Assembly (NCBI GenBank): GCA_019634595.1 | Contig: JAHCBC010000002.1 | Coordinates: forward strand, 682,001-746,000 | Origin: Akkermansiaceae bacterium | GTDB lineage: Bacteria > Verrucomicrobiota > Verrucomicrobiia > Verrucomicrobiales > Akkermansiaceae | Length of the DNA stretch: 64,000 nt | Reading direction: 5' to 3' | Shown here: positions 49,056-52,433 of the stretch, in pieces | Position numbering within the stretch: position 1 is the first letter of the stretch | How the letters are laid out: each line of letters opens with the position of its first letter | The notes under the pieces: generated by a model | What the model was told of the DNA's origin: nothing | The model's input: the letters and a program-made list of their open reading frames with translations, nothing else | Database searches by the model: none | Position numbers and translations under genes: made by a program

Positions 49056-50747
49056 CTACTTCTTCTTCCGCAGGAAAGGCGGAAGGTCGAGATCCTCCCC
49101 GTTCACGACGTTCGGGCTCACCCCTTCGAAGCGGCCACGCGGTGCGGTGTCAAAGGAGAGTTCCGGTTGGGCCGTCGGGGTCTTCACGCCCAGCTTCAGT
49201 TTCGGTGGTTCGGCGGCGGGCTTGGCTTCGGCGGCGGGCACGTCCTCGAGATCCGGTGGAAACTCATCATCCGCGCGGGGCGCAGGGGGCTTGGGCGTCC
49301 AGAGGTTTTTCCCCGCGCCTGAATCGGCATCGGGGGCGAGCCGCATGACATTCTCCGGCTTCGGGACGGAGGCGGCGGGCAGGTGGGTCGCGGGTTTTTC
49401 CTCGGGTTCCGGCGCGGAGGGCGGGGCCGCCGCTTCGACGGGTGAGTCGGCGAAGGCTTCCGCGAAGGGCGGCTCGTCATCCCATACGTCAACCGCCGCC
49501 ACCGGCTCCGGTTCAGGTTGTGGCTCCGGTTCCGGCTCGGGCAGGGGTTTGGCTTCCGGCTGCTGCTTTGAAGTGAACATCGGCTCCAGCTCTGTTTCTG
49601 GTTCCGGCTCCGGTTTTGACTCCTCAACCGGCGGGAGGGTGTCCGCGAATGTCGTTTCGGGCTCAGGTTTGGCGGTGATTGCCGGAGTGGAGAAGGAAGC
49701 AAAACTGTCGGACGGATCCAGCACCGGATTCTCCGGGAGGGATGACGACAGGGAATCCCTCGGTGCCGCACGGAGGTGGTCTTCCGGCAGGGCGCTGATG
49801 AGCGTCACGGAAAGGGAATCCCGCATCGCCGGGTCGATCGCCGCGCCGAAGAGAACATGCGCCTTTTCCGGAACGAACTTCTGGAGCCGCTGCATCAGCA
49901 GCTCGATTTCATAAAGGGTGAGGTCTTCCCCGCCGGAAAGGTGGACGAGCACGGTCTGGGCGTCCTTGAGCAGCGCGCCCTGGTCGAGCAGCGGGCTGGC
50001 CAGCGCGTTGCGCAGCGCCTTGGCGGCGCGGTCCTTGCCTTCCGCCAGGCCGGAGCCGAACAGGCAGCGGGAACGGTTCGTCCGCAGGGCGCTCATCAGA
50101 TCGTCCAGCCCCACGTTGATCAGGCCCGGCCGGATCACCAGGCGGATGACCGCCTTGATGGATTCGCAGATCATCAGGTCCGCGGCGGCGAAGGCTTCGT
50201 GGATGCCCTGTTTCGCCAGCACCAGTTCGCCCATCCGGTTGTTGTCAAAGGTGACCAGCGCGTTCGAGAGGACCGCCAGCTCGTTGAGCGACGTTTCCGC
50301 CTGCTCCCGGCGGCGCTTGCCCTCGAAGAAGAACGGCATGGTGGCGAACACCACCACGAACGCGCCTTCCTCCCGGGCGATGCGGGTGACGATGGGAGCC
50401 GCGCCGGAGCCGGTGCCACCGCCGAGGCCGACACAGAGGAAAACGATGCGGCGGCCGCGCAGCGAGTCGCGGATCTCACTTTCCGCCTCAAGCATCGCCT
50501 GCTGGCCGAGTTCCGGATCACCGCCGGTGCCCAGGCCCTTCGTCAGGTTGCGGCCGAGCTGGATCTTTTCGCCGGCCACCGCGGCGGACAGCGTCCGGAT
50601 GTCCGTGTTCAGCGCCAGGAGTTCGGCGCCCTCCATGCCATCGAGGGCGACGCGTTCGAGGATATTCGTCCCCCCACCACCGAGGCCGATGATTTTCACG
50701 CTCGAGGTGGGGATGGTTTGCTGGGGATCGCGGGTGTAGGAAATCAT
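49056..50747 (-). CDS. ftsZ: cell division protein FtsZ, divergent, with long acidic linker
   Basis: A 563-residue tubulin homologue that forms the division ring. The nucleotide site is GLGGGGTNILERV (21-33), the tubulin signature GGGTGSG is at 109-115, and the C-terminal peptide is EDLDLPPFLRKKK. About 220 residues rich in Pro and Glu separate the globular part from that peptide, much longer than in E. coli (383 residues in all). The T7 loop reads GLINVGLDDL, where most FtsZ have a GLxNxDFADV form, so one catalytic Asp is Gly. The ATG at 50747 (MISYTRDP) was chosen over 50774. It is the last dcw gene here, separated from ftsA by an inserted element. Confidence 0.92.
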   Translation of the reverse strand: MISYTRDPQQTIPTSSVKIIGLGGGGTNILERVALDGMEGAELLALNTDIRTLSAAVAGEKIQLGRNLTKGLGTGGDPELGQQAMLEAESEIRDSLRGRRIVFLCVGLGGGTGSGAAPIVTRIAREEGAFVVVFATMPFFFEGKRRREQAETSLNELAVLSNALVTFDNNRMGELVLAKQGIHEAFAAADLMICESIKAVIRLVIRPGLINVGLDDLMSALRTNRSRCLFGSGLAEGKDRAAKALRNALASPLLDQGALLKDAQTVLVHLSGGEDLTLYEIELLMQRLQKFVPEKAHVLFGAAIDPAMRDSLSVTLISALPEDHLRAAPRDSLSSSLPENPVLDPSDSFASFSTPAITAKPEPETTFADTLPPVEESKPEPEPETELEPMFTSKQQPEAKPLPEPEPEPQPEPEPVAAVDVWDDEPPFAEAFADSPVEAAAPPSAPEPEEKPATHLPAASVPKPENVMRLAPDADSGAGKNLWTPKPPAPRADDEFPPDLEDVPAAEAKPAAEPPKLKLGVKTPTAQPELSFDTAPRGRFEGVSPNVVNGEDLDLPPFLRKKK

Positions 50748-50760
50748 TTTGGGAAACTTT

Positions 50761-50799
50761 GGAACATTGAACATCGAACGTCCAACATCGAACGTCGAA
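50761..50799 (+). repeat. inverted repeat arm, left
   Basis: 39 bases built from the heptamer series GAACATT-GAACATC-GAACGTC-CAACATC-GAACGTC. It matches the right arm in inverse orientation at 36 of 39 positions and sits 13 bases upstream of the ftsZ start codon, so it lies in the ftsZ leader. Confidence 0.85.
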
Positions 50800-50809
50800 G
50801 TGAAGAGAG

Positions 50810-51181
50810 CTATTTGCGGCGTTTTTCGGCGGTGTTGATGCTGGTGACGAAGATGCGGATCAATTGGTCGGTTTCATCGAGCAAGGGAGCCAGTTTCTGA
50901 TCAGGGAGGATCTCGGACCGGATGATCAGTTTGAGCCAGCGTTGTGACTCGCGGAACTCCTTGAGGGCGAGGCGTAATTTGTGGATGAAATCAGCAGGGG
51001 ATTCGGCGCCTTGGGCTTCACCGTGATGGGAAAGCGGAGCAGTCCCCGAGCGGAGAAGTTGGTTGCCTATGTGCCGGGCGGCAAAGTCCGGTCCCAGCGA
51101 GCGGGTGAGAGTGATGATCCGGGCACCGTAGTCCAAAAGACGATCCTCCAGATCGTAGGATGCTTTCGGGTCATCTTCCAT
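50810..51181 (-). CDS. four-helix-bundle protein (S23/IVP family)
   Basis: A 123-residue all-helical protein of the family first described from 23S rRNA intervening sequences, related in fold to the Avd accessory protein of diversity-generating retroelements. Typical elements are YDLEDRLLDYGARIITLTRSL near the N-terminus, GNQLLRSGTAPLSHHGEA (family form IxxQLxRSxTSxxANxxEA) and the central helix FIHKLRLALKEFRESQRWLKLI. The start ATG touches the first base of the right inverted repeat. Molecular role unknown; possibly nucleic-acid binding as a pentamer, as in known relatives. It sits between ftsA and ftsZ. Confidence 0.87.
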   Translation of the reverse strand: MEDDPKASYDLEDRLLDYGARIITLTRSLGPDFAARHIGNQLLRSGTAPLSHHGEAQGAESPADFIHKLRLALKEFRESQRWLKLIIRSEILPDQKLAPLLDETDQLIRIFVTSINTAEKRRK

Positions 51182-51219
51182 TCGATGTTCGATGTTGGAC
51201 GTTCAATGTTCGATGTTCC
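51181..51219 (-). repeat. inverted repeat arm, right
   Basis: 39 bases, the inverse partner of 50761-50799. On the minus strand the heptamers read GAACATC-GAACATT-GAACGTC-CAACATC-GAACATC. Two bases separate it from the ftsA stop codon. Confidence 0.85.
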
Positions 51220-51221
51220 GG

Positions 51222-52433
51222 CTATCGTCCCATCCAGAAAAGACGCGCGATCCGTCCGAGGCAGCCAGGCGGTTTGGCGCGTTCGGTTTCCAGGATCTGG
51301 GCGTAACGGATGAGGCCGATGGCGGTGGCGAAGCGGGGGTCCTTGAAGTTGTTCTGCGAACCGCTGAAGTCGGAGGATTCCGGGCGGTAGATGTCGCGTC
51401 CGAAAACCTCGAACGCCAGCTCGCTGAAGCCGCGCATCTGGCTGGTGCCGCCGGTGAGGAAGATGCCCGCGCCGATGTTTTCGACCGCGCCTTCCGGCAG
51501 CCGTTGCTTCACCAGCTTGAGCGTTTCCTCCAGCCGCTGGCGGATGACCTCGTTGAGGATGCTGCGCTTCACCTCCACGTCCGCGAAGCCGCGTTCGTCG
51601 GTCAGCTTGGCGGTGCCGACGGCCTTCGCCGGATCCGCGGACGCGTCGCCTTCGGTGACCTTCAGGGCCTCCGCCTTTGAAAATGGCAGGCCGGTGACGA
51701 GGTGGATGTCATTCGTCACATGGTCGCCGCCCACGGGGATGCAGCCGGAAGCCGCGATCGAGCCGCCGAGGTAGAGGGCGTAGTCGGTGGTGCCGCCTCC
51801 GATGTCGATCACCAGCGCGCCGCGCTCGCGTTGCTCCGGGTCGAGCGCCATTTGCGCGGTGGCGATGGGGGCGAAAACGACGTCGTCCACTTCCAGCGGC
51901 ATCTCACGGACCAGCTTGATACTGTTCTGGATGCGGTTGCCGATGCCGTGGACGATGTGGAAGTCGGCTTCCACGGTCTTGCCGAAGAGGCCGACGGGGG
52001 AGGTGTTGTGCTCCAGTCCATCCAGCCAGTAGTTGCGGATGATGTTGTGGATATAGACGTGGTCGGCCGGGATGTGGACATCCTTCGCGATGTCCCGGGC
52101 CTCCTGGACGTGTTCCGGAGCCACGGTCGGATCTCCCTCCGGGAGACGGAAGGTGCCGCGGTTGTTCACCCCCTGGATGTGGGAGCCGGTCACCGCCAGA
52201 TACACGCTGCCGATCTCCACGTCGCTGGCATCCTCCGCCTTCACCAGCGCGTCCTTCAGGCAGGCGCGGGCCTGCGGGAAATCATTGATCTCCCCCTTGC
52301 GGACGCCCGCCGTGTTGGTGACTCCGATGCCCAGGATCTTGATCGCGGTGTCCGGCTTCACCTCGCCGACGACCATGCAGGTCTTGCTGGTTCCGATTTC
52401 GAGTCCGACGTGAATTTTCGAGCGGCGTGCCAT
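51222..52433 (-). CDS. ftsA: cell division protein FtsA
   Basis: A 403-residue actin-like protein that tethers FtsZ to the membrane and recruits the divisome. The ATPase elements are GLEIGTSKTCMVVGE (phosphate 1), LVIDIGGGTTDYALY (phosphate 2) and IFLTGGTSQMRGF (adenosine). The SHS2 (1C) domain is in the first third (SVYLAVTGSHIQG). The C-terminus GCLGRIARLFWMGR is the membrane-targeting amphipathic helix. It lies 15 bases downstream of ftsQ. The inserted four-helix-bundle element separates it from ftsZ by 474 bases, which may affect their relative expression. Confidence 0.95.
   Translation of the reverse strand: MARRSKIHVGLEIGTSKTCMVVGEVKPDTAIKILGIGVTNTAGVRKGEINDFPQARACLKDALVKAEDASDVEIGSVYLAVTGSHIQGVNNRGTFRLPEGDPTVAPEHVQEARDIAKDVHIPADHVYIHNIIRNYWLDGLEHNTSPVGLFGKTVEADFHIVHGIGNRIQNSIKLVREMPLEVDDVVFAPIATAQMALDPEQRERGALVIDIGGGTTDYALYLGGSIAASGCIPVGGDHVTNDIHLVTGLPFSKAEALKVTEGDASADPAKAVGTAKLTDERGFADVEVKRSILNEVIRQRLEETLKLVKQRLPEGAVENIGAGIFLTGGTSQMRGFSELAFEVFGRDIYRPESSDFSGSQNNFKDPRFATAIGLIRYAQILETERAKPPGCLGRIARLFWMGR

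Follow-up and report, generated by a model that had tools for sequence, protein, structure and literature searches.

The feature lying between ftsA and ftsZ is, in our judgement, probably a selfish element of the class of the 23S rRNA intervening sequences (IVSs), in which a ring of the encoded S23 protein recognises the element's own heptamer arms and an enzyme that we have not identified moves the element; both the binding and the movement are inferred.

Anatomy of the element between ftsA and ftsZ

In the window, by which we mean the whole 64,000-nucleotide stretch that was analysed, the element occupies 459 bp (50761..51219, minus strand), has the same orientation as ftsA and ftsZ, and contains a single S23/IVP gene and no transposase gene. 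ftsA (51222..52433, minus strand; PF14450 and PF02491) has its stop codon 2 nt ahead of the element, and ftsZ (49056..50747, minus strand; PF00091 and PF12327) has its probable ATG, at 50747, 13 nt past it, matching the gaps given in an earlier note on this DNA. That note had described two inverted arms of 39 bases with 36/39 matches, which we reproduced; the repeat extends to 46 nt in each arm, with 41/46 inverted matches (89% complementary) and 367 nt between the arms. This pair scores 63 as an inverted repeat; the best of 1,942 random window positions with its geometry reached only 29, which excludes chance.

The upstream arm (51174..51219, minus strand) consists of a heptamer array and an inner TGGAAGA (51174..51180, minus strand), while the downstream arm (50761..50806, plus strand) is its inverted copy, with an inner GTGAAGA (50800..50806, plus strand). 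The proposal that the arms are runs of a degenerate heptamer was borne out for both (T-Y-S-A-A-C-R), as was the contact between the S23 start codon and an arm: the ATG (51179-51181) falls just within the 46-nt upstream arm, overlapping its inner GAAGA motif. GC content is 56.7% in the S23 gene, approximately 44% in the arms, and 65-66% in ftsA and ftsZ. An ATG within the downstream arm (50772-50774) is in frame with ftsZ and adds nine codons to it (MFNVPKFPK-MISYTRD); by this route the element could change the ftsZ start.

The inner gene (50810..51181, minus strand) encodes a protein of 123 aa whose assignment to the S23/IVP family, made earlier without database searches, is upheld by profile matches to PF05635 (23S_rRNA_IVP, E=1.1e-11) and TIGR02436 (“four helix bundle protein”, E=4e-20). 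An AF2 model of the protein has four helices (pLDDT 94.4), and its best fold matches are the S23 structures 2RLD and 2GSC, with five chains each, followed by Avd (4DWL; TM 0.65-0.71), so that the suspected kinship of fold with Avd also stands. One of these relatives, XCC0516 (2GSC), is reported to be a homopentameric torus (cited in PMC4990558). Among the S23 genes of the genus, dN/dS was 0.02-0.14 for the pairs in which it could be computed, indicating strong purifying selection and therefore a functional protein. No match to a defence-system family was found, and a search for S23 in phages, limited to a single query, returned no match.

The predicted fold of the mRNA closes the S23 ORF in a terminal stem made by the two arms (z=-4.6). 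Such pairing makes RNase III cleavage between ftsA and ftsZ likely, though cleavage itself is inferred; the long stem formed by the arms in the mRNA may be cut as it is in rRNA IVSs.

Heptamer arms and the S23 lineage

Heptamer arms generally accompany S23/IVP genes across many phyla, a finding that goes beyond what the earlier note had claimed; in all, the comparison took in more than 200 relatives from across the bacteria. From 125 S23 ORFs of the genus and its near relatives, 112 distinct genes with enough flanking sequence were scored, arms being called at an inverted-repeat score of 28 or more. Inverted arms were present in 92 of the 112, with a period of 7 in 83 and a period of 8 in seven; the mean self-identity of the arms reached 0.63 at lag 7 and was 0.58 at lag 14, whereas most other lags gave about 0.27. 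As controls we took 142 further long ORFs from these loci; nine had an inverted repeat and only one had heptamer arms, that one being a gene-less heptamer pair (Fisher p about 1e-40 for arms in S23 genes versus controls). A sample drawn from Proteobacteria, Bacillota, Bacteroidota, Planctomycetes, Acidobacteria, Patescibacteria, Chloroflexi, and other phyla gave arms in 51/75 S23 genes (period 7 in 44) against a control rate of 2.4%, and in one proteobacterial order 12/29 S23 genes had arms, ten of them with period 7. No clear arms were found at the remaining 20/112 S23 genes of the genus set, 24/75 in the other phyla, and 17/29 in the single order. The number of units per arm peaks at five and is mostly three to six, with a median array length of 32 nt. 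In the genus set, 58/91 elements start no more than 15 nt from the stop codon of a co-directional long ORF (3.3% of random positions do so), and 15/91 have their right end at a convergent stop; there are also elements that run antisense to their neighbours or converge on them.

The heptamer itself differs between S23 lineages, with GAACATC, AGTTTTC, AGACACA, CCAGAGA, GATTTTG, GGTTGAT, GTGATCA, and others each accompanying a lineage. Even within the window genome, five of the S23 genes differ visibly in their arms (GAACATC, AAGCACT, GTTGATG, CAGGATG, and GGTCAAT), and the heptamer is therefore not a genome-wide repeat. Arm similarity was correlated with S23 identity (Mantel r 0.545; maximum over 2,000 permutations 0.11): arms were alike (0.6 or more) in 84% of S23 pairs above 80% identity, in 38% of pairs at 60-80%, and in at most 3% of pairs below that. 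Within groups of related S23 genes, many of them at one conserved locus, an element's own two arms ranked as closer to each other than to the arms of other members (own-pair rank 0.83-0.90 in the two largest groups), indicating that both arms change together. The AGACACA and AGTTTTC lineages (L099-L145) are found at the same conserved locus in many genomes of the genus, which implies that some S23 elements have long been present and were passed on vertically. At one such locus, arms of GTGATCA type replace AGTTTTC in some members while the S23 gene remains recognisable, a switch that is not predicted by a fixed binding code alone; nor is the co-inheritance of S23 and arms proof of binding.

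Could the arms have arisen with no recognition by a protein at all, through replication slippage and quasipalindrome template switching that make and homogenise 7-nt repeats around an ordinary gene? The variable number of units and the concerted change of both arms at conserved loci are what slippage would give, and heptamer repeats were previously attributed to it (PMC4692102). We nevertheless find this very improbable, because the arrays are specific to S23 genes (83/112 versus 1/142 controls) in many phyla and are gene-proximal, and because their interior is ordered, with an odd unit GTCCAAC and an inner GAAGA, and one sequence recurs at many sites.

The reading that we prefer, recognition of the arms by S23, supposes that an S23/IVP protein travels with a pair of inverted arms; rings of five chains are known from solved relatives of the protein, and the arms have about five degenerate heptamers with an inner GAAGA. 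TRAP, a ring that binds regularly spaced repeats, may offer an analogue for the S23 ring. The correspondence here is between the five chains of the solved S23 relatives and the peak of five units per arm, with no binding data. By inference, an S23 pentamer would bind its cognate arms as DNA or as the stem in RNA, with roughly one 7-nt unit per subunit in the manner of TRAP; binding might take place on RNA or on exposed single strands and would protect or pair the ends of the element. The fixed 7-nt pitch and the lineage-following heptamers yield a testable prediction, namely that each S23 ring binds its own arms.

Insertion sites, arm copies, and candidate moving enzymes

An S23 gene is absent from the ftsA-ftsZ spacer in all 23 relatives of the genus whose junction could be read (L040-L062), and likewise in four more distant genomes (L064-L067); the ftsA-ftsZ spacing in these loci is 0-148 nt, taken to the first ftsZ match. 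The element is accordingly a private insertion of the window genome among those sampled, and the outcome that would have refuted the earlier note, in which all relatives carry the gene at this site, did not occur. These empty spacers also bear on the idea that S23 is a domesticated regulator tuning cell division from between ftsA and ftsZ. Its co-directional position between two division genes and the purifying selection on S23 genes of the genus are compatible with such a role; however, only the window genome has the copy at this site, among the 24 genomes of the genus whose junction is readable, and other copies stand beside unrelated genes (oppD-oppF, cas6-cas4, nrdB-nrdA, and 23S rRNA), so that we give the idea almost no credence. 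The element settles even between essential division genes.

In four relatives, unrelated and gene-less heptamer-like arrays occupy the ftsA-ftsZ spacer: G023 (L044), G014 (L048), G016 (L046), and G022 (L057). These arrays were recognised by eye, the clearest being an inverted pair of GATCGTA type in G023, and no match to that pair was found among the S23 genes of G023. They suggest that the spacer has been hit repeatedly and independently.

S23 genes bounded by heptamer arms, which the earlier note had proposed to look for, are present in relatives, and those of the same lineage are at other sites. The S23 proteins closest to that of the window (56-73% identical) have the same GAACATC arms at three different sites. 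In G007 and G009 the site separates a pair of ABC-transporter ATPase genes (oppD/oppF-like; loci L010 and L011); in G023 it is flanked by a binding-protein gene and a CoA-transferase-like gene, and in G006 it follows an exosortase-like gene. The other loci of this lineage are L014 and L015, and neighbours were named by inspection of the sequence. With the window site, this lineage and its arms are thus found at four sites in one genus. The oppD-oppF junction exists in four states. It holds the full element in G007 and G009, a decayed form in G006 with the arms and the last 24 codons of S23, a miniature in G023 with the arms and a short gene-less interior, and no element in the window genome (G000) and G004, where oppD abuts oppF. 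The co-occurrence of these states in one genus supports mobility and shows a route to gene-less pairs, which would be deletion derivatives.

The arms also recur through the host genome, where a periodic-pattern scan of the fetched regions found about 35 dispersed arms, the window's two included, as the earlier note had suggested should be sought. They form 11 inverted pairs, of which ten enclose 50-247 bp without an S23 gene, and there are solo arms as well. The order of units is kept, with the odd unit GTCCAAC in mid-array and GAAGA immediately inside 26/35 arms, and the arms are therefore not free-running tandem repeats. No target-site duplication was visible at the 11 pairs, no signal of insertion into pre-existing hairpins was detected, and no convincing S23 remnant was found within the gene-less pairs of the host, the one match having E=0.003 (L071). 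Across genomes, those with a close S23 have 3-31 GAACATC arms and others mostly 0-5 (MWU p=0.001); the exceptions are G001 and G002, with 25-30 arms and no close S23. The assembly of G002 is incomplete, and S23 lies at a contig end in G012 and G024.

Two further arrangements were seen among the arm copies. The gene-less elements L073:4037-4359 and L081:4045-4359 have in common a nested inverted repeat in their interior (CATGGAGTGCGGCAG...CTGCCGCACTCCATG), which seems to belong to another repeat family lodged within the element. Long direct, rather than inverted, arrays of the GAACATC arm in steps of about 21 bases (three heptamers) are present at G023:C117:2-193, G009:C8:213993-214073, G009:C5:6134-6212, and G006:C348:26081-26189.

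One could hold that the arms act at the RNA level only, as a stem processed by RNase III that excises S23 from a polycistronic transcript, with S23 as cargo or regulator and rare recombination spreading the element. We consider this unlikely without being able to set it aside, since the terminal stem predicted in the mRNA, the RNase III excision of the Coxiella IVS (PMC4990558), the co-variation of arms in orthologous elements at one locus, and the co-directionality of most elements with the upstream gene all agree with it. On the other hand, an RNase III stem does not require a fixed 7-nt pitch, the antisense and convergent elements do not fit, and the dispersed arms, the ten gene-less pairs, and the empty and full sites require copying.

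The empty sites, the other sites, and the arm copies support the earlier note's picture of a minimal element that jumps without its own transposase; movement remains an inference. In the mechanism that we favour, an enzyme not encoded in the element would cut or copy it and move it, and insertion would go to spacers right behind stop codons, where damage to the host may be small. That no transposition event has been observed, no enzyme identified, and no target duplication seen sets the limits of reading the feature as a mobile element. The search for a reverse transcriptase or transposase with matching ends, proposed in the earlier note, found none. A reverse transcriptase as required partner was rejected, as the host's three RVT_1 genes are on other contigs and none is at an arm site; moreover, no RVT_1 match was found in the S23-bearing genome G006 or the single-contig genome G064, and a reverse transcriptase is therefore not generally needed for persistence. 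RAYT/Y1 transposases were likewise rejected as owners of the arms, the RAYT genes near some arm sites being flanked by palindromes of their own that are unrelated to the heptamers.

A further possibility is that the elements are mobilised in trans by a Y1 (IS200/RAYT) transposase of the host, much as REPs are by RAYTs, with S23 as a mere helper or passenger. Y1_Tnp genes occur in 60/61 genomes of the genus, and the element's hairpin-forming ends and lack of a visible duplication would suit such an enzyme; Y1 transposases are still possible helpers despite the different palindromes. As an explanation of the elements we think it quite unlikely, given those palindromes, the genome G056, which has S23 genes and in which no Y1_Tnp was found, and the fact that the heptamer tracks S23 and not a transposase.

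Separately, a Y1/RAYT domain was observed in frame inside two host proteins, with both host ORFs open on either side: in the L116 (G000:C5:75232-78408) and L118 (G000:C2:345277-348480) pair, one member is MetH, in which the domain splits the B12 activation domain, and the other is GcpE/IspG. Y1_Tnp matches in open frames of more than 1,000 aa occur in many genomes of the genus, and such insertion may be recurrent.

Relation to known elements

The function of the S23/IVP protein and the origin of the 23S IVSs have been open for more than 25 years (PMC4990558). We regard as evenly balanced the broader proposition that S23/IVP proteins and heptamer arms define a class of mobile elements that lack a transposase, extend throughout the bacteria, and use a protein-repeat recognition code particular to each lineage (a ring of five-fold symmetry reading about five 7-nt units). 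The 23S IVSs would be one niche of this class, and the long-unexplained heptamer repeats of cyanobacteria, Xanthomonas, and Beggiatoaceae would be its arms and gene-less derivatives. If true, it would give a single explanation for several separately described families of intergenic heptamer repeats. Our literature searches, which mostly did not cover subscription journals, found no paper linking S23 genes generally with heptamer arms; what looks new is the general architecture and its coupling to S23 lineage, together with the existence of gene-less derivatives and the use of ordinary spacers between genes as sites.

The intergenic repeats in question include GGGAATC of Xanthomonas and GGGGA(C/T)T of Nostoc, reported in PMC4692102, and TAACTGA of Beggiatoaceae and cyanobacteria, reported in PMC4679880. 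Like S23 arms, they are degenerate 7-nt arrays in intergenic positions near gene ends, and those of Xanthomonas are often convergent inverted pairs (70 in Xcc; PMC4692102). The accessible portions of the two papers contain no mention of a link with S23/IVP. An S23 gene (L282) from the order to which Rhodanobacter belongs has GGGAATC as its arm heptamer. On cyanobacterial plasmids (the L183/L184 set), S23 elements were seen in a type I-D CRISPR operon, between cas6 and cas4, in Anabaena sp. 90, and, in antisense, between nrdB and nrdA in Nostoc edaphicum.

Diversity-generating retroelements resemble the S23 elements through Avd (4DWL; DGR complex 8UB7), which is likewise a four-helix bundle (TM about 0.7) with several chains per entry, but the window element has no reverse transcriptase beside it, and thus no nearby reverse transcriptase with template and variable repeats as expected of a DGR. 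MITEs and REP elements with their RAYTs are also short, with inverted ends, many copies that include gene-less ones, and a transposase that acts in trans or is unknown. Of the features that define a MITE, the window element has short length with terminal inverted repeats, no transposase, and multiple copies (ten gene-less pairs and the S23 copy), whereas a target-site duplication and ends in common with an identifiable autonomous transposon are lacking, the arms being shared with S23 elements. S23 elements differ from both groups in having heptamer arrays as ends, in carrying the S23 gene, and in showing no target duplication, and RAYT palindromes are of another kind.

The closest likeness is to the 23S rRNA IVSs of Coxiella, Leptospira, Salmonella, and others, which have about 430-460 nt, one S23/IVP ORF, and complementary termini forming a stem (PMC4990558), and which have been termed selfish (PMC4990558). 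The Coxiella IVS has terminal repeats, is excised by RNase III, and has heptameric GACAGAT repeats beside its S23p ORF (Warrier et al., PMC4990558); AGAAGA, like the GACAGAT repeats, adjoins that ORF (PMC4990558). The Coxiella ORF is reported to be decaying (PMC4990558), in contrast to the S23 genes of the genus, which are under purifying selection. The window element differs further in its site in a protein operon, in the several genome sites that bear its arms, and in its gene-less relatives. A direct connection is provided by plasmid AZO_p2 of Azospirillum lipoferum, where a 23S rRNA gene (Rfam LSU_rRNA_bacteria, 2529 bits) contains an S23 gene flanked by AGAGGAC/GGATGAC arms: a heptamer-armed S23 element within such a gene places the classical 23S IVSs in the same class. 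Of the features expected of an IVS, the window element has the PF05635 ORF and the stem-forming termini and lacks the location in 23S rRNA; given its site between ftsA and ftsZ, it is not an rRNA IVS in the strict sense. In protein and architecture it is a member of the S23/IVS class.
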